NCBI GenBank assembly: GCA_025451235.1
Contig: JANWKT010000038.1
Location: 1-43,210 of the forward strand
Reading direction: 5' to 3'
Source: Flavobacteriales bacterium
Lineage (GTDB): Bacteria > Bacteroidota > Bacteroidia > CAIKAF01
Length of the DNA: 43,210 nt
The first letter of the stretch is position 1, and every line of letters starts with the position of its first letter. Below the pieces are notes generated by a model. The model worked only from the letters and a program-made list of their open reading frames with translations. It ran no database searches and was not told the origin of the DNA. The translations under genes were made by a program, and so were the position numbers. Shown in pieces: positions 2,337 through 40,815 of this stretch.

Positions 2337-2807
2337 ATGAAGAAGGTCGAATTAAAACTGGCATTCACCGAATTAGGTCTAGATGAATTGGACCATGAGG
2401 ATAAAATGCTCTATGATAAAGCCATGGAAGCGGCGAAAATAGCCTATGCTCCTTATTCTGGGTTTAGTGTTGGAGCCGCTTGTCTGCTGGATAACGGAGA
2501 AATATTTACGGCTAGTAACCAAGAAAATGCCGCATATCCTTCCGGCTTATGTGCCGAAAGAAGTTTATTGTTTTACGTGGGAGCCAATAGACCCGATCAA
2601 ACCATCCTAAAATTAACAGTGGTAATTAAGTCGAAGTTGCGGGATGCTAAAAAGATATATTCCCCTTGTGGTGCTTGTCGTCAGGTAATGGCTGAATACC
2701 AGAACCGTCAGAGCTCGCCTATACAAATCATGTTCGAAGCCGGTGAAAACAAAGTGCTGGTTTGTAGCAGAATCGATGATTTATTACCTTTTATTTTTAA
2801 CTTTTAA
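2337..2807 (+). CDS. cdd: Cytidine deaminase
   Basis: Hydrolyses cytidine or deoxycytidine to uridine or deoxyuridine in pyrimidine salvage. The 156 residues match the small, tetrameric cytidine deaminase class. Residues 72-74 read C-A-E (zinc ligand Cys72, proton shuttle Glu74). PCGAC gives the other zinc cysteines at 111 and 114. The substrate-binding stretch YSGFSVGA (about 40-47) and the NQENAAYP segment (about 61-68) are also present. About the first 25 residues precede the conserved core, a modest N-terminal extension. It is divergent from pepA; the gap holds both promoters. Confidence 0.94.
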   Translation: MKKVELKLAFTELGLDELDHEDKMLYDKAMEAAKIAYAPYSGFSVGAACLLDNGEIFTASNQENAAYPSGLCAERSLLFYVGANRPDQTILKLTVVIKSKLRDAKKIYSPCGACRQVMAEYQNRQSSPIQIMFEAGENKVLVCSRIDDLLPFIFNF

Positions 2808-2927
2808 TCAGGTTTAGCATTGGTTTGCCAATATATTCCTTGCAGTCCAGAGGCTGCTAATGCTTCCACATACCTATCCGGAAGCGGAAATAGGTACTCA
2901 TTGCACCCAAAACTTGAAGGATTATTA

Positions 2928-2935
2928 TAACTTTG
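2928..2935 (+). promoter_or_regulatory. TAnnTTTG -7 promoter box for pdhA
   Basis: TAACTTTG is an exact -7 consensus match, with a TTG at 2901-2903 (24 nt spacing, slightly long). It lies 20 nt before the ATG at 2956 and inside the reading-frame extension that begins at 2860, which argues for the 2956 start. Confidence 0.6.
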
Positions 2936-2955
2936 TTACCTATTATACCGGAAAT

Positions 2956-3999
2956 ATGGCGAAAGAAACCATGGTTCAAGAAACTAAGTCGAAGACCAAT
3001 ATGACCAAAACCAAGTTTACGAAAGAAACTTACCTGAAATGGTATGAGGATATGCTGATGTGGAGAAAGATCGAAGAAAAAGCGGGACATCTATATATTC
3101 AGCAAAAAATTCGCGGATTCTGTCACTTGTATGTCGGCCAGGAAGCAGTAGTTGCCGGTTCGGCAAGTGCTATCCGTCTGGATGATAACATGATCACCGG
3201 TTATAGGAACCACGTGCATCCGTTGGCAAAGGGAATGCATCCGAAATATATGATGGCCGAACTTTTTGGAAAAGCCACCGGCTGTTCCAAAGGAAATGGA
3301 GGTTCGATGCACATGTTCAGCAAAGAACTTAGGTTTTTTGGAGGACATGGAATTGTTGGCGGACAAATTCCATTGGGAGCTGGATTGGCTTTTGCAGATA
3401 AATTTGCTGGTAACGACAGGGTAACTTTATGCTATATGGGTGATGGAGCTGTTAGGCAGGGTGCTTTACACGAAACATTTAACTTAGCCATGCTCTGGAA
3501 ATTACCTGTGATCTTTATTATTGAAAATAATATGTATGCGATGGGAACTTCCGTTGAAAGAAGTTCGAATGTTCATGATCTATATAAACTGGGTGCTGCT
3601 TATGAAATGCCAAGTTCACAAGTAGATGGAATGAAACCTGAAACCATGCACGAAGCAGTAGAAGAAGCTGCAGCCAGAGCCAGAAAAGGAGAGGGCCCTA
3701 CTTTATTGGAAGTAAAAACCTATCGATACAAAGGACATTCCATGAGTGATCCACAAAAATACCGTACCAAAGAGGAAGTAGAAGATTTTAAGGAAGAAGA
3801 TCCGATTTTATGGACGCTGAGTGTGATCCAAAAAAATAAATGGGCTACAGAGAAGGAGATTGAAGCGATCGAAGAAAGAGTAAATGCATTGATCGAAGAA
3901 AGTGTAAAATTTGCTGAAGAATCTCCTTTTCCAGATGCATCTGAATTATACAAAGATGTTTATATAGAGCAGAACTATCCATTTATAAGAGAGGACTAA
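2956..3999 (+). CDS. pdhA: Pyruvate dehydrogenase E1 component, alpha subunit
   Basis: Thiamine-diphosphate subunit of the pyruvate dehydrogenase complex, which decarboxylates pyruvate and passes the acetyl group to lipoyl-E2. From ATG 2956 the protein has 347 residues. The ThDP-binding motif runs from GDGAVRQG (GDG at about 162-164) to IENN (about 189-192). SKGNGGSMHMF and the regulatory-loop region YRYKGHSMSDP are typical of E1-alpha. The frame is open back to ATG 2860, but that extension (LPHTYPEAEIG...) is unlike the family and contains the promoter box, so 2956 is preferred. The E2 gene follows after 88 bp. There is no E1-beta gene (pdhB) next to it; it must lie elsewhere if the complex is complete. 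Confidence 0.93.
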   Translation: MAKETMVQETKSKTNMTKTKFTKETYLKWYEDMLMWRKIEEKAGHLYIQQKIRGFCHLYVGQEAVVAGSASAIRLDDNMITGYRNHVHPLAKGMHPKYMMAELFGKATGCSKGNGGSMHMFSKELRFFGGHGIVGGQIPLGAGLAFADKFAGNDRVTLCYMGDGAVRQGALHETFNLAMLWKLPVIFIIENNMYAMGTSVERSSNVHDLYKLGAAYEMPSSQVDGMKPETMHEAVEEAAARARKGEGPTLLEVKTYRYKGHSMSDPQKYRTKEEVEDFKEEDPILWTLSVIQKNKWATEKEIEAIEERVNALIEESVKFAEESPFPDASELYKDVYIEQNYPFIRED

Positions 4000-4087
4000 G
4001 GAATTAGAAATGTAAAATCCCATTCGGCTGATTCCTCCGGTGGATTGAATTTTAAAAAAAAATGAAAGTTAATTTTTAATTTAAAAT

Positions 4088-5320
4088 ATGGCTGAAATCG
4101 TTAGGATGCCCAAATTAAGCGATACCATGACAGAAGGTACCGTAGCAGCATGGCATAAAAAAGTAGGAGATAAAGTAAAAACGGGTGATCTGTTGGCAGA
4201 GATTGAAACAGACAAAGCCACCATGGAATTTGAAAGTTTCCAGGATGGAGTTTTATTGTATATAGGTATTGAAAAAGGAGGAAGTGCTCCTGTTGATTCT
4301 ATTCTGGCCATTTTAGGTAAGGAGGGAGAAGATTTTAAAGCATTGATTGAAAGTGCAGATGCTACAAAAACGGAAACAAAGGAAGAGCCAGTAGAAAAAG
4401 AACAAGAAACTAAAAAGACGGAAACTGTAAATGCAAAAACAGAAACCGTTTCGGTAGTTGAAACTGCGGTTGCTTCATCCAATGGGGATGGAAGAATAAA
4501 AGCATCCCCTTTGGCAAAAGCATTGGCAAAAAATAAAGGGGTGAATCTTTCCATGGTGAAAGGAAGTGGAGATGGAGGAAGGATCATTAAAAAAGATATT
4601 GAGAATTTTAAAGGTGGTGGTGGTGCTATTACAGCTACCGAATCGTTTACCGAAGTGGCCGTTTCGCAAATGCGTAAAACCATTGCCCGTCGTTTAAGCG
4701 AAAGTAAGAATGGAGCGCCTCATTTTTATCTCACCATGTCTATTAACATGGATCAGGCAATGAGTTCACGGAAGGCTTATATTGACCTCACCGGAGAGAA
4801 GATCTCATTCAATGATATGGTGATCAAAGCAGTGGCCATGGCCTTGCGGATTCATCCAAATGTAAATTCTTCCTGGTTAGGGGATAAAATTCGTTACAAC
4901 AAACATATCCATATTGGAGTAGCTGTAGCTGTTCCTGATGGTTTGGTGGTTCCGGTAGTAAAATTTGCCGACCATAAATCTTTTTCTGAAATATCATCTG
5001 AAGTGAAAACATTTGCTCAAAAAGCAAAGGATAAAAAGATCCAACCTGCAGATATGGAAGGGAATACTTTTTCCATTTCTAACCTCGGAATGTTTGGTAT
5101 TGATGAATTTACCGCCATCATTAATCCGCCTGATGCCTGTATCCTGGCAGTAGGTGGGATCAGCCAGGTGCCGGTGGTAAAAGACGGTGCTATAGTTCCA
5201 GGAAACATAATGAAAGTTACATTGAGCTGTGACCATCGGGTAGTGGATGGCGCAACAGGATCTGAATTTTTACGTACACTTAAACTAATGCTGGAAAACC
5301 CGGTATTAATGTTTGCATGA
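4088..5320 (+). CDS. pdhC: Dihydrolipoamide acetyltransferase (E2) of pyruvate dehydrogenase
   Basis: Forms the core of the pyruvate dehydrogenase complex and transfers acetyl groups to CoA. The 410 residues show one lipoyl domain (1-80; ETDKATME with lipoylated Lys43), an Ala/Lys/Glu/Thr-rich linker (about 88-130), a peripheral-subunit (E3/E1)-binding domain (about 136-174; SPLAKALA...GGRIIKKDI) and a C-terminal catalytic domain ending in DHRVVDG with His383 and Asp387. Many family members carry two lipoyl domains; this one has a single domain. It follows pdhA after 88 bp and overlaps the tatA-like gene by 4 bp (ATGA), so the two are translationally coupled. Confidence 0.93.
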   Translation: MAEIVRMPKLSDTMTEGTVAAWHKKVGDKVKTGDLLAEIETDKATMEFESFQDGVLLYIGIEKGGSAPVDSILAILGKEGEDFKALIESADATKTETKEEPVEKEQETKKTETVNAKTETVSVVETAVASSNGDGRIKASPLAKALAKNKGVNLSMVKGSGDGGRIIKKDIENFKGGGGAITATESFTEVAVSQMRKTIARRLSESKNGAPHFYLTMSINMDQAMSSRKAYIDLTGEKISFNDMVIKAVAMALRIHPNVNSSWLGDKIRYNKHIHIGVAVAVPDGLVVPVVKFADHKSFSEISSEVKTFAQKAKDKKIQPADMEGNTFSISNLGMFGIDEFTAIINPPDACILAVGGISQVPVVKDGAIVPGNIMKVTLSCDHRVVDGATGSEFLRTLKLMLENPVLMFA

Positions 5321-31989: not shown

Positions 31990-33540
31990 ATGATGCGCTA
32001 CCTATTTTTGTATTTAGGATTCATGATATCTGTCTGCATTTCAGCTCAGCATACCAACATCCTGATCAGCACAACCAATGATCCGAATGAACCTGCTATC
32101 ATGTTGGATCCATTGAATACAAATCGAATGGTAGCCGGTTCTAATATAGATAATGTATACTATTCCACCGATGCAGGCCAGACCTGGTTGGAGATTGTTC
32201 AAACTTCCACTTTTGGCGTTTGGGGTGATCCGGTTTTTGTGGTAGACACCGCCGGGGATTTTTACCATTTTCATTTATCAAATACCGGAGGAAGTGGGTG
32301 GATTGATCGCATCGTTTGCCAGAAATCTACTGATGGTGGGGCAACCTGGAACAATGGTTCATTTACAGGTCTCAATGGATCTGCTGACCAGGATAAACAT
32401 TGGGTTGCTATCGACAGGAATACAAATGTTTTATATGTAACCTGGACCCAATTCGACAATTATGGAACCAGTGATCCCCAGGATAGCAGTGTGATCTTAT
32501 TTTCAAAATCAACAGATGCCGGGGCAAGTTGGGCAACTCCGATAACCATATCAGATAGAGCAGGAGATTGTGTGGATTCGGATGAAACAATGGAAGGAGC
32601 GGTTCCAACTATCGGACCTAATGGAGAAATTTATGTTTCGTGGATAGGACATGATACTTTGTTTTTTGATAAGTCAACAGATGGAGGTGTTACCTGGTTG
32701 CCAAATGATCTGGCGATCACCACCATTCCTGGCGGTTGGGATTATAATATACCGGGTCTATATAGATGCAATGGATTGCCTATTACGATTTGTGATACCT
32801 TATCCACCAGTGCGTATAACGGGAATATTTATATCAACTGGACAGATCAACGCAATGGACCCACCGATACGGATGTTTGGATGGTGAGATCGACGGACGG
32901 TGGTAGTTCGTGGTCATCTCCTATCCGGGTAAACGACGATTCACCCGGCAAACACCAGTTTTTAACCTGGATGACCGTAGATCAGGCAAACGGAAATTTA
33001 TATTTTGTTTTTTATGACCGCCGAAATTATATCAACAACCTAACGGATGTTTATATGGCGAGGTCAACGGATGGAGGAAACACATTTGAGAATTTCAGGA
33101 TCAGCGAATCCCCGTTTATGCCCAGCGGAGCAGTGTTTTTTGGAGATTATACCAACCTGGCCGCCTATAACGATGTGATCCGCCCGATATGGGCAAGGAT
33201 GGATGGCGGCGCATTGTCGATCTATACCGCTTTGGTAGATCCACAGGTATTGGGGGATGAAAATTTTGAGGAAGAGGACCAGGTGTTCAACTATCCTAAC
33301 CCTTTTGCGCAAGAAACATTTTTTTCTTTTAAGCTTAAATACAAAATGAAAGTAACAGCCGTTCTATATGATCCTCTTGGTCGGTTAGCAGCTACCATTA
33401 TCGATAACCAGGAAATGGATTTTGGACATCATGTAATAGAGTTTAAAGCTGCTGACTATCATTTGGAACCTGGTATTTATACCTACGTTCTAACAAAAGG
33501 GTCGAATTCAATATCCAGAAAGATCTTGCACGTAAATTAA
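31990..33540 (+). CDS. T9SS-exported Asp-box (BNR/sialidase-fold) propeller protein
   Basis: 516 residues. Sec signal (about 1-20, ending ISAQ), then a propeller with Asp-boxes YSTDAGQTW, STDGGATW, STDAGASW, STDGGVTW, STDGGSSW and STDGGNTF. A C-terminal sorting domain (about 440-516: NYPNPFAQETFF, DPLGR, GIYTYVL) is present. The propeller is paralogous to the protein at 24082, sharing many motifs in the same order. Glycosidase activity is possible but not supported by clear catalytic motifs; many such proteins are surface binding or adhesive. It shares a tight junction with miaE downstream. Confidence 0.85.
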   Translation: MMRYLFLYLGFMISVCISAQHTNILISTTNDPNEPAIMLDPLNTNRMVAGSNIDNVYYSTDAGQTWLEIVQTSTFGVWGDPVFVVDTAGDFYHFHLSNTGGSGWIDRIVCQKSTDGGATWNNGSFTGLNGSADQDKHWVAIDRNTNVLYVTWTQFDNYGTSDPQDSSVILFSKSTDAGASWATPITISDRAGDCVDSDETMEGAVPTIGPNGEIYVSWIGHDTLFFDKSTDGGVTWLPNDLAITTIPGGWDYNIPGLYRCNGLPITICDTLSTSAYNGNIYINWTDQRNGPTDTDVWMVRSTDGGSSWSSPIRVNDDSPGKHQFLTWMTVDQANGNLYFVFYDRRNYINNLTDVYMARSTDGGNTFENFRISESPFMPSGAVFFGDYTNLAAYNDVIRPIWARMDGGALSIYTALVDPQVLGDENFEEEDQVFNYPNPFAQETFFSFKLKYKMKVTAVLYDPLGRLAATIIDNQEMDFGHHVIEFKAADYHLEPGIYTYVLTKGSNSISRKILHVN

Positions 33541-33557
33541 TTTACAATTGATTGATT

Positions 33558-34142
33558 ATGATGTTCCGTCTACAACTTCCTACCGATCCACGCTGGGTTG
33601 ATATAGCAGAAATGAACGAGGCAGATATCTTAACCGATCATGCTTATTGTGAGCAAAAGGCGGCCTCCACAGCCATTTCGTTGATCGTACGCTATTTTAA
33701 TTATCCTGAAATAGTTTCTGCAATGGCTGATCTGGCAAAAGAGGAAATGGAACATTTTAAAAGAGTACATGATTTTATCTTAAAAAGGGGCCACAAGTTA
33801 GGTGTCGAAAAAAAAGACGAATATGTAAACAAACTTATCCGGTTTATCAAAAAAGGGGGTGGCAGAGAGCAGCAACTTATTGATCATCTATTAACGGCTG
33901 CATTGATCGAAGCCAGAAGTTGTGAAAGGTTCAAATTATTGAGTGAACAAATAAAGGACAAGGAACTGGCTGAATTTTATCGGGAACTCATGGAAAGTGA
34001 AGCTGGGCATTATACCTTATTCATCGGCCTGGCCAGGAAAGTAGCTCCCCGCGAAAAAGTAGATAAAAGATGGAAGGAAATATTGAATTTTGAAGCCGAG
34101 GTGATCCTGTCACTTGAAAATAAATCGGCTATCCACGGTTAA
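33558..34142 (+). CDS. miaE: tRNA-(2-methylthio-N6-isopentenyladenosine-37) hydroxylase MiaE
   Basis: Diiron monooxygenase that hydroxylates the isopentenyl group of ms2i6A37 in tRNA. From ATG 33558 there are 194 residues. A TTG at 33552 in frame would add two residues but is unnecessary. The four-helix diiron bundle shows its ligands: Glu in AYCEQKAA, EEMEHF, Glu in ALIEARSCERF, and SEAGHY, with the expected E...ExxH repeats. It begins 17 bp after the sialidase-fold gene and is the only housekeeping gene between secreted-protein genes. The usual length is ~190-250, so it is complete. Confidence 0.9.
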   Translation: MMFRLQLPTDPRWVDIAEMNEADILTDHAYCEQKAASTAISLIVRYFNYPEIVSAMADLAKEEMEHFKRVHDFILKRGHKLGVEKKDEYVNKLIRFIKKGGGREQQLIDHLLTAALIEARSCERFKLLSEQIKDKELAEFYRELMESEAGHYTLFIGLARKVAPREKVDKRWKEILNFEAEVILSLENKSAIHG

Positions 34143-34210: not shown

Positions 34211-35803
34211 ATGAAAAGAATTCTTTTATCGGCTATGATTCTTTGTGGATGGTCAGCAGCCAATGCTCAAACCTATACTTGGGCCGAAAATACTGCTTGT
34301 ATATTTTATACCAATTGTACCAAATGCCATTTTCCAGGAGGGCCAGGTCCTTTTTCACTGATAGATTATGCAAATGCATTTGTGGCCAGATTTGCGATTA
34401 AGCAAGCTGTATTGGATAATTATATGCCGCCCTGGCCACCCGATGAAAATTATCAGACCTATGCCCACGAAAGGTTATTGACCCAACAGGAAAAGGATAT
34501 TATTGTTGCCTGGGTAGATCAAGGGGCAATACTTGGTAACGTTGCTAATGCCCCTACACCCCCTACATATGGAGGTGGATCACAATTAACAGGTCTCGAC
34601 TTTACAGCGAGCATGGGTACTTATGTAAACCCGCAAACCATTGATGATTACATGTGCTTTGTTATTCCCACCAGCTTTGGAGTAGACAAGTATATTTCCG
34701 ACATCGAATTGGTGCCAGGTAACCGGGCCATTGTTCATCACGTGCTGATTTACCAGGACACAAATCCTATCATCAATACGTTAGACAACAATTATCCCGG
34801 CTTAGGTTACCAGAATTTTGGTGGAACCGGCAGCACCACTTCCAAATTAATAGCCGGGTATGTTCCGGGATCTCAACCCTTGAGTTTTCCTGCCGGAATG
34901 GGCATGAAATTGGATGCCAATGCGAATATTATTTTACAGATCCATTATCCTCAAGGCACCGATGGTGAATTGGATAGCAGCCGGATCAATTTAAAATTTG
35001 CGTCCGGCCCGGTAAGAGAACTTACTTTGGCCCCTATATTAAACCATAGTACCAATATTAACCCTGCATTGGTCATTCCGCCCAACACAGTCATGAACTT
35101 TACAGAAACATTTACCATCCCCAGCTTCTCCCCTGGTGCCGACAGTGTTACCATTTTATCCATTGCACCTCATATGCATCAAGTAGCTACCAGTATAAAG
35201 GTGTATGCCATCCGACCAGGAAATGATACCGTTCCTTTAATAGATATACCCAATTGGGATTTTAAATGGCAAGGGCTATATGATTTCAGGCAACCCATGG
35301 TTTTTTCCGAAGGCTCTGTAGTAATTGCAGAGGCTGTTTTTAACAATACAAGCTCAAATGTAAATGCACCTAATCCTAATAATTGGGTATATGCTGGAGA
35401 AGCCACCACAGATGAAATGATGTTGGTGTATTTCGATTATTTGGTGTATCAACCCGGAGATGCAAATATCATTGTTGATACCGTAACGGTAAAACCAACG
35501 TATAACGGCTGCCAGTTTGTAGGATTGGAGGATATGGCTAATGCATATGCGCAATTTAATATTTATCCAAACCCAACCGGTGATTTTGTCAACGTTAGTT
35601 TTGAACAATACGAAGAAGGGGATGTTAAATTAACATTGGTGGATCTTTCGGGTAAAATAATAACTGAATATATTCAGCCTGAAACCGGAATAGGAACTTT
35701 TACCAAAACTATTGATGTTCAGACTCTTCCTTCGGGGATGTACTATATAAGGGTGTTCAATGGCAGCGAGATGTTTTCAAAACCCTTGGTTGTAACAAAA
35801 TAG
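34211..35803 (+). CDS. Cytochrome c-PHM-like copper monooxygenase fusion with T9SS domain, copy 1
   Basis: 530 residues. Signal peptide 1-19 (SAANA|Q). Cytochrome c domain about 21-106 with haem motif C36-T-K-C39-H40 and likely distal ligand M72 (YMPPW). A PHM-like copper core spans about 125-430: the CuH site is H176, H177 and H245 (LQIHYPQG); the CuM site is H321, H323 (PHMH) and M403 (TTDEM). Spacings 68, 76 and 80 compare with 64, 70 and 70 in rat PHM. C149 and C434 could pair. The T9SS sorting domain is 450-530 (YPNPTG...YYIRVF). Inference: an exported O2-dependent hydroxylase reduced through its own haem. The substrate is unknown. First of four tandem paralogues. Confidence 0.85.
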   Translation: MKRILLSAMILCGWSAANAQTYTWAENTACIFYTNCTKCHFPGGPGPFSLIDYANAFVARFAIKQAVLDNYMPPWPPDENYQTYAHERLLTQQEKDIIVAWVDQGAILGNVANAPTPPTYGGGSQLTGLDFTASMGTYVNPQTIDDYMCFVIPTSFGVDKYISDIELVPGNRAIVHHVLIYQDTNPIINTLDNNYPGLGYQNFGGTGSTTSKLIAGYVPGSQPLSFPAGMGMKLDANANIILQIHYPQGTDGELDSSRINLKFASGPVRELTLAPILNHSTNINPALVIPPNTVMNFTETFTIPSFSPGADSVTILSIAPHMHQVATSIKVYAIRPGNDTVPLIDIPNWDFKWQGLYDFRQPMVFSEGSVVIAEAVFNNTSSNVNAPNPNNWVYAGEATTDEMMLVYFDYLVYQPGDANIIVDTVTVKPTYNGCQFVGLEDMANAYAQFNIYPNPTGDFVNVSFEQYEEGDVKLTLVDLSGKIITEYIQPETGIGTFTKTIDVQTLPSGMYYIRVFNGSEMFSKPLVVTK

Positions 35804-35841
35804 ATACTTGTTCGTCATACCATTATTAGTGCTGATTTTCT

Positions 35842-35849
35842 TATATTTA
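35842..35849 (+). promoter_or_regulatory. Near-consensus -7 box before the second copper monooxygenase gene
   Basis: TATATTTA (seven of eight matches to TAnnTTTG), 32 nt before the ATG at 35882. The same word occurs 27 nt before copy 4, which suggests a shared promoter type. Confidence 0.35.
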
Positions 35850-35881
35850 CAGTAACGTATAAAAACAAATTCACCAGCTTC

Positions 35882-37492
35882 ATGAAAAAATTATTACTCT
35901 CTACTGTCTTGATCCTTAGTTTGCAGGCAGCATCAGCACAAACCTATACCTGGGCTGAGAATACAGCTTGTATTTTTTATACCAACTGCACCAAATGTCA
36001 TTTTCCAGGTGGTCCTGGACCATTTTCATTAATTAATTATTCAGGAGCATTTACCGCCAGATTTGCCATCAAACAAGCCATATTGGATGATTATATGCCC
36101 CCTTGGCAACCTGATGAAACGTACCAGACCCATGCATTTGAAAGATTGTTGAGTCAGCAAGAGAAAGACATTATTGTTGGTTGGGTGGACCAGGGAGGAT
36201 TGGCCGGGAACCTGGCAAGTGCACCTCCGGCTCCAAGTTATAATGCCACTGGGTCGCAATTACCCTCCCTTGATTATAGTGGAAGTGTAGGAAATTATAC
36301 AAATACAGCAGCAACCGATATCTATATGAACTTTTATATTTCCACTCATTTGGGAGTGGACAAGGATATAGAGTCGATTGAATTAATTGCAGGAACAAGA
36401 AGCATGGTTCACCATGCACTCGTATATTTTGAAGAAGATACCAATGGATTGATAGCTTTAGACAATGGTTACCCGGGAATGGGATGGGAAAATGTTGGAG
36501 GAACGGGGCTTAGCACTTCCAAGTTAATTTATACCTGGATCCCTGGTACCGACCCGTTAACTTTTCCAAGCGGAATGGCGGCCAAATTACCTGCGAATGC
36601 TTATATAGTTGTTCAGTTACACTATCCTCAAGGTACAACCGGAGATATAGACAGTAACACCGTTGTGAATCTAAAATATGCTTCAGGTGCGGTGAGAGAA
36701 GTAAGCATGGCCCCCCTATTGGATTTTATTTCTTGGACACAAATTTCACCATGGCCACTTCATATATCACCCAATTCTACGGCTTCGTTTGTGGAGACCT
36801 ATACATTGCCGAGCATTACCGCCGGGGCTGATAGCTATACTTTTTTAAATGTACAACCTCATATGCATAAGGTAGGCAGCAGAATAAAAGTCTACGCAGT
36901 GAAGCCCGGAAATGATACCGTACCGATGGTATATATTCCGCAATGGGACTTTAAATGGCAAGGCCAATATTCATTTAGACAGCCTATTGTATTGCCAGAA
37001 GGAACAGTATTAAGAGCTGAAGCATTTTATGACAATACTTCAGCAAATATCAATGCCCCTAATACCAGTCTAAATGTTTGGGCCGGAGAATCTTCGGAAG
37101 AAGAAATGATGCAGGTGTATTTTAGTTTTTTACCTGCTTTGGCGGGTGATGAGAATATTATCGTTGATACAGTTACGGTAAAGCCTACCTATATGGGCTG
37201 CAATTTTGTGGGGATAGAAGATACGGAAGGAGCTTATGCTCAATTAAAAGTATATCCCAATCCATCCAGCGATTATGTAAATGTTTCTTTCGAACAATTG
37301 GAAGAAGGGGATGTGAAATTATCATTGGTCGATTTATCAGGGAAGGTTTTGGCAGAATATTTGCAGCCGGAAGTGGGACTGGGTCTTTTTACCACTTCTA
37401 TAGATGTTCAATCTATTTCTGGAGGAATGTACCTGATCAAAATATTGAGTGGAAACCATTTATATGTAAAACCACTTGTAGTAAATAAATAA
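35882..37492 (+). CDS. Cytochrome c-PHM-like copper monooxygenase fusion with T9SS domain, copy 2 (most divergent)
   Basis: 536 residues with the same order of parts as copy 1: signal peptide 1-19, CxxCH at 36-40, M72, copper ligands H177, H178, H247, H327, H329 and M409 (SEEEM), and sorting domain from about 456 (YPNPSSDYV). It differs from the others in having Asn150 in place of the conserved Cys (copy 1 C149) while keeping Cys440, so a disulfide proposed for the others could not form. It also has EEEM instead of (T/D)(D/E)EM at the CuM methionine and a longer insertion (about 283-296, rich in Trp and Pro). Copy 3 follows only 14 bp later, so the two are co-transcribed. It is probably active but with altered substrate access. 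Confidence 0.84.
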   Translation: MKKLLLSTVLILSLQAASAQTYTWAENTACIFYTNCTKCHFPGGPGPFSLINYSGAFTARFAIKQAILDDYMPPWQPDETYQTHAFERLLSQQEKDIIVGWVDQGGLAGNLASAPPAPSYNATGSQLPSLDYSGSVGNYTNTAATDIYMNFYISTHLGVDKDIESIELIAGTRSMVHHALVYFEEDTNGLIALDNGYPGMGWENVGGTGLSTSKLIYTWIPGTDPLTFPSGMAAKLPANAYIVVQLHYPQGTTGDIDSNTVVNLKYASGAVREVSMAPLLDFISWTQISPWPLHISPNSTASFVETYTLPSITAGADSYTFLNVQPHMHKVGSRIKVYAVKPGNDTVPMVYIPQWDFKWQGQYSFRQPIVLPEGTVLRAEAFYDNTSANINAPNTSLNVWAGESSEEEMMQVYFSFLPALAGDENIIVDTVTVKPTYMGCNFVGIEDTEGAYAQLKVYPNPSSDYVNVSFEQLEEGDVKLSLVDLSGKVLAEYLQPEVGLGLFTTSIDVQSISGGMYLIKILSGNHLYVKPLVVNK

Positions 37493-37506
37493 GAATCTTT
37501 TTAGTT

Positions 37507-39108
37507 ATGAAGAAGTTTCTATTCATCGCTGCCACCGTATTCAGTTTACAGATGGCCTCTGCCCAATCTTATACCTGGGCCGAAAATACAGCCTGTATTT
37601 TCTATACCAATTGTACCAAATGTCATTTCCCTGGAGGTCCTGGCCCTTTTTCATTGATTGATTATGCGAATGCATACTCAGCACGATTTGCCATCAGGCA
37701 GGCTATTCTGGACGACTATATGCCCCCTTGGCAACCGGATGAAAATTACCAGACCTATGCACATGAAAGGTTGTTGACCCAAACAGAAAAGAATATTATT
37801 GTTGCATGGGTTGATCAAGGTGCTGTACAGGGAAACCTGGCCAACGCCCCAACACCTCCTTCTTTTAGCGCCAGTGGTTCCCAATTAAGCCAAATTGATT
37901 TCGGTGGAGGTATCGGTAATTATACCAATGCAGAAACAACCGATGATTATCGTTGCTTTTTGATCCCTACTCATTTTACTTCCGATCAATACATATCCGA
38001 AATCGAATTGATCCCTGGTAACCGTGCCATGGTCCATCACGTTTTGATCTATGCTGAAACGGATACCAATGCATTAATTAGTTTAGACAATGCGGATCCT
38101 GGAATGGGATATACCAACTTCGGAGGAACCGGATTAAACACATCCAATCTTTTAGGAGCTTGGGTACCGGGAAGCGATCCCTATGTATTTCCAACAGGCA
38201 TGGGTGTGAAGGTGGCCGCAGGTTCTTATTTAGTACTTCAGGTACATTATCCACAGGGAACGGATGGAGATACAGATAGCAATACGGTGATCAACTTTAA
38301 ATATGCTTCAGGAACGGTTCGCGAAGTTTCCCTGGATGCCATTTTAAATCATGTCTACAATATTACACCTGCGTTGATGATTGCACCCAACTCCACCGCC
38401 AGTTTTACCGAATCCTATACCTTACCGAGTATCACCCCATGGGCAGATAATTATACTGTTATTAATGTATTTCCTCATATGCATAAAGTGGGAAGAAGCA
38501 TCAAAGCATACGCGATTAAACCTGGAAATGATACAGTCCCTTTGATCGATATTCCCAATTGGAACTTTAAATGGCAGGGGACCTATACCTTCAGACAACC
38601 CATGGTTTTCCCTGAAGGAACCGTATTAAAAGCAGAGGCATTCTATGATAATACCAGCGCAAATCCTGATGCTCCGAATCCAAACAACTGGGTATTTGCC
38701 GGCGAAGCTACAGATGAAGAAATGATGGTGGTATTTTTTGGATGGTTATTTGCATATCCGGGTGACGCCAATATTATTATTGATACGGTTACCGTAAAAC
38801 CTACCTACAATGGCTGCCAGTTTGTTGGATTGGAAGATGTAGCTAATTCATATACGCATTTCAACATTTATCCTAATCCGGCAAGCGAAATGGTGAACCT
38901 TAGCTTTGAGCAGTTCGAAGAAGGCGATTTGAAGATCTCCCTGGTGGATATTTCAGGTAAAATATTGAGTGAATTTATACAGCCACAGGTAGGAGTGGGA
39001 ACCGTTTCAAAAACCATTGATGTAAGGACCCTTCTGCCGGGAATGTATTATATCCGGGTATGGAATGGCACATCTATGTATGCCAAGCCTATTGTGGTGG
39101 TGCGATAA
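37507..39108 (+). CDS. Cytochrome c-PHM-like copper monooxygenase fusion with T9SS domain, copy 3
   Basis: 533 residues: signal peptide 1-19, CxxCH 36-40, M72, C150, copper ligands H177, H178, H247, H324, H326 and M406 (TDEEM), and sorting domain from about 453 (YPNPASEMV...YYIRVW). Its first ~160 residues are almost the same as copy 4, including 57 identical nucleotides around the signal-peptide cleavage site. Its sorting domain, however, is like that of copies 1 and 2. It is preceded at 14 bp by copy 2 and followed by a strong terminator-like hairpin (39135). Confidence 0.85.
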   Translation: MKKFLFIAATVFSLQMASAQSYTWAENTACIFYTNCTKCHFPGGPGPFSLIDYANAYSARFAIRQAILDDYMPPWQPDENYQTYAHERLLTQTEKNIIVAWVDQGAVQGNLANAPTPPSFSASGSQLSQIDFGGGIGNYTNAETTDDYRCFLIPTHFTSDQYISEIELIPGNRAMVHHVLIYAETDTNALISLDNADPGMGYTNFGGTGLNTSNLLGAWVPGSDPYVFPTGMGVKVAAGSYLVLQVHYPQGTDGDTDSNTVINFKYASGTVREVSLDAILNHVYNITPALMIAPNSTASFTESYTLPSITPWADNYTVINVFPHMHKVGRSIKAYAIKPGNDTVPLIDIPNWNFKWQGTYTFRQPMVFPEGTVLKAEAFYDNTSANPDAPNPNNWVFAGEATDEEMMVVFFGWLFAYPGDANIIIDTVTVKPTYNGCQFVGLEDVANSYTHFNIYPNPASEMVNLSFEQFEEGDLKISLVDISGKILSEFIQPQVGVGTVSKTIDVRTLLPGMYYIRVWNGTSMYAKPIVVVR

Positions 39109-39134
39109 AAATCCCGAACAATATTAACATAACT

Positions 39135-39167
39135 AAAGGCTGAAATTTTGACGAAATTTCAGCCTTT
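39135..39167 (+). terminator. Strong hairpin between copper monooxygenase copies 3 and 4
   Basis: AAAGGCTGAAATTT and AAATTTCAGCCTTT form a perfect 14-bp stem with a 5-nt loop, followed by a U-rich run (TTTGTCTATTATTTTG). It is the strongest terminator-like structure in the window and should end the transcript of copies 2-3. Confidence 0.8.
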
Positions 39168-39181
39168 GTCTATTATTTTGC

Positions 39182-39189
39182 TATATTTA
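39182..39189 (+). promoter_or_regulatory. Near-consensus -7 box before the fourth copper monooxygenase gene
   Basis: TATATTTA lies just after the hairpin at 39135 and 27 nt before the ATG at 39217, so copy 4 probably has its own transcript. Confidence 0.35.
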
Positions 39190-39216
39190 CTCATCTAAAA
39201 AATTACACAAGGATCT

Positions 39217-40815
39217 ATGAAAAAATTTTTACTAGTTGTTGCCACCGTATTCAGTTTACAGATGGCCTCTGCCCAATCTTATACCTGGGCCGAAAACACA
39301 GCCTGTATATTCTATACTAATTGCACCAAATGTCATTTTCCCGGTGGACCTGGCCCTTTTTCATTAATTGATTATGCCAATGCATTTACTGCCAGGTATG
39401 CGATCAGACAAGCTATCCTGGATGATTATATGCCACCATGGCCTCCGAATGAAAACTATCAAACCTATGCACACGAGAGGTTGATCACTCAGCAGGAAAA
39501 AGACATCCTGGTGGCTTGGGTAGACCAGGGTGCTGTTATGGGGAACCTGGCCAATGCACCTACACCACCTAGCTTTAGTGCTTCCGGTTCGCAATTGAGC
39601 CAGATCGATTTTTCAGGATCTGTTGGAAATTTTACCAATGTATCATTAACGGATGATTACCGTTGCTTTTTAATTCCTACGTATTTTACAACAGACCAAT
39701 ATATTTCGGAAATTGAGGTGATCCCAGGTAACAGATCCATGGTGCATCACGTATTGATCTATGCAGATACCGATACAAATGCTTTGATTGCATTGGACAA
39801 TGGTGATCCTGCGATGGGTTATCAAAGTTTCGGTGGAACCGGAAGCGGTTCTTCAAAACTCATCAATGGTTGGGTTCCCGGTAGCGCTCCTGCGAGTTTC
39901 CCAGCTGGAATGGGTGTAAAGGTTGAGGCAGGATCTTATCTTGTTTTGCAAATACATTATCCTCAGGGTACCGATGGTGAAACCGATAGCAATACGGTGA
40001 TCAATTTCAAATATGCCGGTGGTGCAGTGAGGGAAGTATTCCTTCAACCGATTTTGAATCATATTACCAATATCAGTCCTCCGTTGGCCATCGCTCCTAA
40101 CTCAACGCAGAGCTTTGTTGAATCTTATACCATTCCGAGTACCGCACCTTTTCCATACATCACCGTGTTGAGCGTAGCTCCTCATATGCATTTGGTGGGA
40201 CGTTCCATTAAAGCATTTGCCGTGCGACCGGGCAATGATACGGTTCCTTTGATCGATATTCCCAATTGGGATTTCAAGTGGCAGGGTGGGTATAATTTCC
40301 GTCAACCGATTACTTTCCCTACAGGAACCGTAGTAAGGGCAGAAGCATTTTATGACAATACAAGTGCCAACCCTTTAGCACCTAATCCAAATAATTGGGT
40401 ATTTGCAGGCGAAGCAACTACGGATGAAATGATGATCGTATATTTCAGTTATCTATATGGATTCCCTGGAGATGCAAATATTGTTGTGGATACGGTAACC
40501 ACACATCCAACGTATATGGGTTGTAATTTTGTGGGAACCGAAGAGCAGATCGGAGCAAATGCACAATTGCAGCTGTACCCAAATCCAACAGGCTATGATT
40601 TTTATATCAGGTATGATCAATTCGAAAAATCAGATCTCACCGTGAAGATCATCGATGTTACCGGAAGGGTAGTTTTCCAGATGGTGCAACCTGACGTGGA
40701 AGCCGGGACCTTTGTAAATAATATCCCTGTTGAAAATATCATCCCTGGAACATATATGGTGCAAATTGCCAATAATAAAGGGATCAGCAATAAGACCCTG
40801 ATCATCGTAAGGTAA
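39217..40815 (+). CDS. Cytochrome c-PHM-like copper monooxygenase fusion with T9SS domain, copy 4
   Basis: 532 residues: signal peptide 1-19, CxxCH 36-40, M72, C150, copper ligands H177, H178, H247, H323, H325 and M405 (TTDEM). The catalytic part is closest to copy 3, but the C-terminal ~85 residues (YPNPTGYDFYIRYDQFEKSDL... ending NKTLIIVR) are clearly unlike the near-identical sorting domains of copies 1-3. This suggests domain exchange or faster divergence of the export tag. It is separated from copy 3 by a terminator, with its own promoter-like box, and is followed by a terminator at 40840. Substrate unknown. Confidence 0.85.
   Translation: MKKFLLVVATVFSLQMASAQSYTWAENTACIFYTNCTKCHFPGGPGPFSLIDYANAFTARYAIRQAILDDYMPPWPPNENYQTYAHERLITQQEKDILVAWVDQGAVMGNLANAPTPPSFSASGSQLSQIDFSGSVGNFTNVSLTDDYRCFLIPTYFTTDQYISEIEVIPGNRSMVHHVLIYADTDTNALIALDNGDPAMGYQSFGGTGSGSSKLINGWVPGSAPASFPAGMGVKVEAGSYLVLQIHYPQGTDGETDSNTVINFKYAGGAVREVFLQPILNHITNISPPLAIAPNSTQSFVESYTIPSTAPFPYITVLSVAPHMHLVGRSIKAFAVRPGNDTVPLIDIPNWDFKWQGGYNFRQPITFPTGTVVRAEAFYDNTSANPLAPNPNNWVFAGEATTDEMMIVYFSYLYGFPGDANIVVDTVTTHPTYMGCNFVGTEEQIGANAQLQLYPNPTGYDFYIRYDQFEKSDLTVKIIDVTGRVVFQMVQPDVEAGTFVNNIPVENIIPGTYMVQIANNKGISNKTLIIVR

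Follow-up and report, generated by a model that had tools for sequence, protein, structure and literature searches.

Four consecutive genes at 34211–40815 on the plus strand of the window (the whole 43,210-nt stretch of DNA analysed here) probably encode exported monooxygenases of the PHM/DBH type, in which a built-in c-type cytochrome would relay electrons to the CuH site for hydroxylation outside the cell. PHM is the copper oxygenase that animals use to finish peptide hormones. PHM and dopamine beta-hydroxylase (DBH), both textbook copper enzymes, are to our knowledge known almost only from animals, with ascorbate supplying the electrons. The route by which electrons reach CuM in these enzymes is still debated. 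With a natural one-chain version, where a visible, reducible haem stands beside the copper core, electron entry could be timed directly by spectroscopy. Such proteins would also show how bacteria, with no ascorbate, power extracellular C–H hydroxylation, and could guide the design of hydroxylation catalysts with a built-in electron relay.

Arrangement and domain architecture of the four genes

The four tandem ORFs encode products of 530–536 residues. Copy 1 (34211–35803, plus strand, 530 aa; ORF, Pfam, AlphaFold2 model and VIA-align evidence) consists of a signal peptide, a haem c domain, a PHM-type dicopper core and a T9SS type A tail. The haem c domain (residues 21–120; profile, conservation and fold) is encoded at 34271–34570, the dicopper core (Pfam, rat PHM alignment and fold match) at 34571–35461 and the T9SS type A sorting domain (PF18962 and TIGR04183 above cut-off) at 35558–35803, all on the plus strand. 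Copies 2 (35882–37492, 536 aa), 3 (37507–39108, 533 aa) and 4 (39217–40815, 532 aa) lie on the same strand and, judged by ORF and Pfam evidence, have the architecture of copy 1. A search of the genome detected no PHM-type genes beyond these four.

Each copy starts with a Sec-type signal peptide that ends, on a by-eye reading, near residue 20. In the profile search the Por_Secre_tail match was strong in all four copies, with TIGR04183/PF18962 above cut-off, and the genome search located a gene for the T9SS sortase PorU. The three features of a T9SS type A cargo protein (C-terminal sorting domain, signal peptide and a sortase in the genome) were thus found together, as one would expect from an initial sequence-only reading of this DNA, which had described the proteins as exported and ending in a T9SS tag.

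The copper core and its relation to PHM

The sequence-only reading had staked its assignment on a match to the Cu2_monooxygenase profiles. Such a match was found: Cu2_monoox_C (PF03712) scored above the Pfam cut-off in all four copies, and for Cu2_monooxygen (PF01082) copies 3 and 4 passed the cut-off of 30 bits, copy 1 had a borderline score of 29.5 bits and copy 2, with 16.5 bits, fell short. A profile made from 20 homologues retrieved rat PHM at E ~6e-9, with the HH, HY, HxH and DEM motifs aligned. The six copper ligands (the His-His pair and further His of CuH; the His-x-His and Met of CuM) are kept in 4/4 copies in the alignment with rat PHM, which agrees with the earlier claim that all of them are present and in order. 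The spacings between them are 68/76/80 in copy 1 (exactly the figures first given, as the measured motif positions show), 69/80/80 in copy 2, 69/77/80 in copy 3 and 69/76/80 in copy 4, all close to the 64/70/70 of PHM.

Alignment to PHM places the CuH ligands of copy 1 at H176/H177 (34736–34741) and H245 (34943–34945), and its CuM ligands at H321/H323 (35171–35179) and M403 (35417–35419), all on the plus strand. The corresponding plus-strand positions for the HH pair, the single His, the HxH pair and the Met are 36410–36415, 36620–36622, 36860–36868 and 37106–37108 in copy 2; 38035–38040, 38245–38247, 38476–38484 and 38722–38724 in copy 3; and 39745–39750, 39955–39957, 40183–40191 and 40429–40431 in copy 4. 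Judged from the sequences, a match of all four copies to PHM with the ligands in place is far beyond what chance would give.

An AlphaFold2 model of copy 1 (pLDDT 79) had rat PHM as its first-ranking Foldseek match (E 4.6e-14). In VIA-align comparisons with PDB structures the model matched rat PHM with Z 22.8 over 264 residues (rmsd 3.2 Å), while the rows for other families had Z of at most 10.6. The earlier reading had proposed superposition on PHM as a check of ligand placement; as far as the PHM fold and the homologous positions of the ligands are concerned (VIA-align and alignment), the model bears it out, and the copper ligands would be expected to cluster as they do in PHM. Profile, ligands and modelled fold all point to the PHM/DBH (copper type II monooxygenase) superfamily, and the four proteins are presumably hydroxylases.

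With rat PHM (PDB 1PHM, 1OPM, 1SDW) the bacterial proteins share the two-domain dicopper fold and the order of the six ligands; the equivalent of rat Gln170 (Q243 in copy 1) is retained in all four copies as well. The rat enzyme, however, has no haem domain and uses ascorbate as its donor, and its peptide-clamping Arg240 and Asn316 are replaced in the bacterial copies. The bacterial core is nearly cysteine-free and therefore lacks the disulfides of animal PHM. DBH (PDB 4ZEL; Z 22.5 in VIA-align against the copy 1 model) resembles the new proteins in having an N-terminal module before a PHM-type core, but that module is a DOMON domain and not a c-type cytochrome, and the secretion route and the substrates differ.

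The haem domain and a pair of cysteines

Every copy has CTKCH at residues 36–40 and the Met of an MPPW motif at residue 72, in agreement with the sequence-only reading (CxxCH at 36–40, distal MPP Met72). The plus-strand positions of the CxxCH motif and the distal Met are 34316–34330 and 34424–34426 in copy 1, 35987–36001 and 36095–36097 in copy 2, 37612–37626 and 37720–37722 in copy 3, and 39322–39336 and 39430–39432 in copy 4. Both elements are invariant among 20 sequences, the distance from the first Cys to the Met is 36 in all relatives of the CxxCH/MPP type that we read, and CxxCH and Met are conserved together with the six copper ligands in relatives from Bacteroidota and Planctomycetota.

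Comparison with known families and structures gave low scores. Cytochrome_CBB3 was matched in 4/4 copies below its cut-off (E ~0.02), and the PDB profile matches of the domain were mostly c-type cytochromes, all of them weak. Folded alone, the domain had pLDDT 87; in the copy 1 model confidence is low in the stretch directly after MPPW. Foldseek yielded no confident match for the domain (best E 0.25). VIA-align placed PccH of Geobacter sulfurreducens (PDB 4RLR) first, with Z 7.3 and rmsd 1.9 over 73 residues, a fold match in the uncertain range where the resemblance is possibly due to chance; hydrazine synthase alpha came second with its C-terminal haem domain (Z 5.4). PccH differs in being a stand-alone periplasmic protein without a copper domain, and a PccH-like low potential for the domain would be a structural analogy only. 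Genes for cytochrome c assembly proteins (PF01578) are present in the genome. Motif, spacing, conservation and fold match make it very likely that this is a mono-haem c domain, to which the haem would be attached through CxxCH. The original description of a mono-haem c domain joined to a PHM core is supported in each copy, with CxxCH, Met and the PF03712 match present in all four.

A further cysteine, Cys30 (34298–34300, plus strand, in copy 1), stands six residues before CxxCH and was found in 17 alignment rows (14 distinct proteins). The linker that follows the core has a cysteine (copy 1: Cys434, 35510–35512, plus strand) in 17/17 rows with Cys30 versus 3/27 rows without it, and in those three rows it has other sequence contexts; a single family of the phylum supplies all the proteins with Cys30, and their rows are therefore not independent of one another. 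In copy 2, C30 and C440 are the only non-haem cysteines. This co-occurrence is a new observation. Its simple reading suggests a Cys30–Cys434 disulfide anchoring the haem domain at the end of the copper core; in the copy 1 model, pLDDT is <50 in the Cys434-bearing linker.

Divergence of the copies and the substrate pocket

Copies 2–4 are 61–67% identical to copy 1. Among the four copies the haem domains are 80–89% identical and the PHM halves 54–77% identical, and synonymous sites are saturated between copies. In a tree, copies 1, 2 and 4 each pair with one of the three copies that a sister genome (L008) has, and the duplications therefore predate the split of the two genomes. The third of these sister copies (L008:9398–10993) has VHL in place of VHH at residues 177–178 (codons CAC CTC), with the loss of one CuH ligand; seen on one contig of one assembly, it is either a natural variant or an assembly error.

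In rat PHM, residues Arg240, Asn316 and Tyr318 hold the peptide carboxylate. Their equivalents in copies 1–4 are A/Q/F/A, L/Q/V/I and Y/Y/F/Y, respectively, and orthologues retain their own set of pocket residues. With the Arg240 and Asn316 equivalents replaced, the carboxylate clamp is missing, so the proteins probably fall outside peptidylglycine hydroxylase in the strict sense (EC 1.14.17.3) and peptidyl-glycine is, on sequence grounds, an unlikely substrate. A shared electron-input module combined with differing substrate pockets points to substrates that are probably different but related; the four copies would then probably have one electron partner and several substrates.

Distribution of the fusion

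Of the 395 Bacteroidota genomes sampled, 35 had PF03712 matches; within the family to which this genome belongs, near full-length relatives turned up in 13 of the 16 genomes. We read 29 Bacteroidota ORFs (L024–L052), one of which is cut by a contig end. A haem domain accompanies the PHM core in 27 of the 28 intact ORFs: 15 are of the CxxCH/MPP form and 12 of a CX2CH or CX4CH/MPLG form, and one (L044) is haem-free. The presence of a haem domain in 27 of 28, and in two forms, points to a function tied to the haem. A CX4CH motif (CATSGCH-type) with MPLG, constituting the second form of the haem domain, is found on the PHM core in L025, L030, L031, L036, L037, L043, L045 and L048. L044, a lipoprotein-like PHM core, could serve as a natural control for the contribution of the haem.

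In Planctomycetota (the phylum of a Pirellulaceae genome) 44 of 149 genomes have matches. The planctomycete ORFs that we read have the MPPW haem domain seen here, save one whose start is cut short, and several add a redoxin (AhpC/TSA) domain and EF-hands. In L093, L090, L087 and L091 a single chain comprises redoxin, cytochrome c and PHM core, and some of these proteins have EF-hands in addition. Planctomycete proteins of this kind (e.g. L093, L090 and L087) resemble the window copies in the haem domain, the CxxCH-to-Met spacing and the copper core, and differ by the extra N-terminal AhpC/TSA domain and sometimes EF-hands, with no T9SS tail found in them. We found no study of the redoxin–cytochrome c–PHM proteins in the literature searched.

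The fusion is not special to this genome: the counts from Bacteroidota and Planctomycetota make it the rule in two phyla, with the present locus as one instance. Plasmid records yielded a single relative, the haem-free actinobacterial L123, which has a PHM core without a haem domain. Together L044 and L123 indicate that the haem is not obligatory for the PHM fold.

No NCBIfam model fits the region of haem domain plus core. We found no published description of a cytochrome c–PHM fusion in a search that left subscription papers largely outside and so does not prove absence. Within the limits of this search the parts are known and the combination, a PHM-superfamily monooxygenase with a haem c relay, is apparently unstudied.

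Electron supply and alternative roles of the proteins

PHM takes one reducing equivalent from ascorbate for each copper, and its CuH and CuM are ~11 Å apart (PMC6123673). One haem holds one electron and a turnover needs two, so an outside donor is required. The sequence-only reading called the enzyme self-feeding, which goes too far given this electron count; the comparison of gene neighbourhoods showed no donor gene beside the fusion genes, whose neighbours are conserved within the genus only. We considered a dedicated adjoining donor gene and rejected it, with no neighbour conserved beyond the genus; a second copy of the haem domain acting as donor was rejected too, with none present elsewhere in the genome. 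A direct precedent for a c-type cytochrome domain as donor exists in Cellvibrio japonicus, where the c-type cytochrome domain CjX183 of Cbp2D reduces and activates bacterial copper LPMOs (PMC8981238). There, as proposed here, a c-type cytochrome domain feeds an exported copper monooxygenase, but CjX183 and the LPMOs are separate proteins, and LPMOs bind a single copper and have a different fold.

The proposed mechanism is as follows. The Sec signal would direct each protein to the periplasm, where covalent haem c and copper would be acquired, and type IX secretion would carry it across the outer membrane. In place of ascorbate, the haem domain (His40/Met72) would take single electrons from the outside donor and pass them to CuH (His176/177/245 in copy 1), while CuM (His321/323 and Met403 in copy 1) would bind O2 and hydroxylate a C–H bond of an extracellular substrate. 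The Cys30–Cys434 disulfide would probably keep haem domain and copper core in contact. Electron input would be common to the four copies, which would be set apart by their substrate pockets. More tentatively, and with somewhat less than an even chance in our judgement, the array may represent a widespread, unstudied PHM branch where ascorbate is replaced by a fused haem c relay, clasped by a disulfide in this lineage, with four exported paralogues acting on different substrates and drawing on one shared extracellular donor.

Electrons could also flow the other way, the copper core oxidising a substrate and the haem domain exporting electrons to a partner. Class I-like haem domains can act as electron acceptors, and PccH, the nearest structural match, is part of a cathodic electron pathway; still, we know of no characterised enzyme of the PHM superfamily that does other than consume electrons to activate O2, and with every ligand for O2 activation kept in the four copies such a reversal seems very unlikely. 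Another arrangement, a working copper monooxygenase whose haem domain is not its donor, would make the haem a redox or O2/NO sensor, a binding module or a means of peroxide management in a mainly H2O2-driven enzyme. Six-coordinate mono-haem domains with His/Met ligation are typically electron carriers. That typical role, the invariant distal Met and the occurrence of two distinct haem-domain forms N-terminal to the same core argue for a donor, and we regard a non-donor haem as unlikely, even though haem-free relatives exist, the redoxin domain of planctomycete members hints at peroxide or thiol chemistry and H2O2 can replace O2 plus reductant in PHM (PMC6123673).

Two further explanations bear on catalysis itself. 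True peptidyl-glycine hydroxylases, amidating extracellular peptides as in animals, would share the fold and copper ligands seen here, and the Tyr318 position is indeed Tyr in three of the four copies, but the replaced Arg240 and Asn316 equivalents leave no carboxylate clamp and make amidation very unlikely. Alternatively, some or all copies might be non-catalytic surface proteins that bind copper or haem. The third sister copy has lost one CuH ligand by its HH-to-HL change, and rat PHM becomes inactive when any of its CuH ligands is replaced by alanine (PMC6123673). The six ligands are, however, retained by all four copies in the window and by nearly every relative from the two phyla, which makes a non-catalytic role very unlikely. 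The preferred reading remains that of exported monooxygenases fed with electrons through their own haem domain.

Two observations concern the surroundings of the genes. Directly upstream, at 31990–34142 of the window, lie a gene for a T9SS protein with BNR repeats and a MiaE-like gene; both also adjoin the PHM genes of the sister genome, but not those of more distant relatives. Three genes at 2337–5317, 30 kb away from the array, have relatives that adjoin a PHM gene in L011 (L011:4188–7064).
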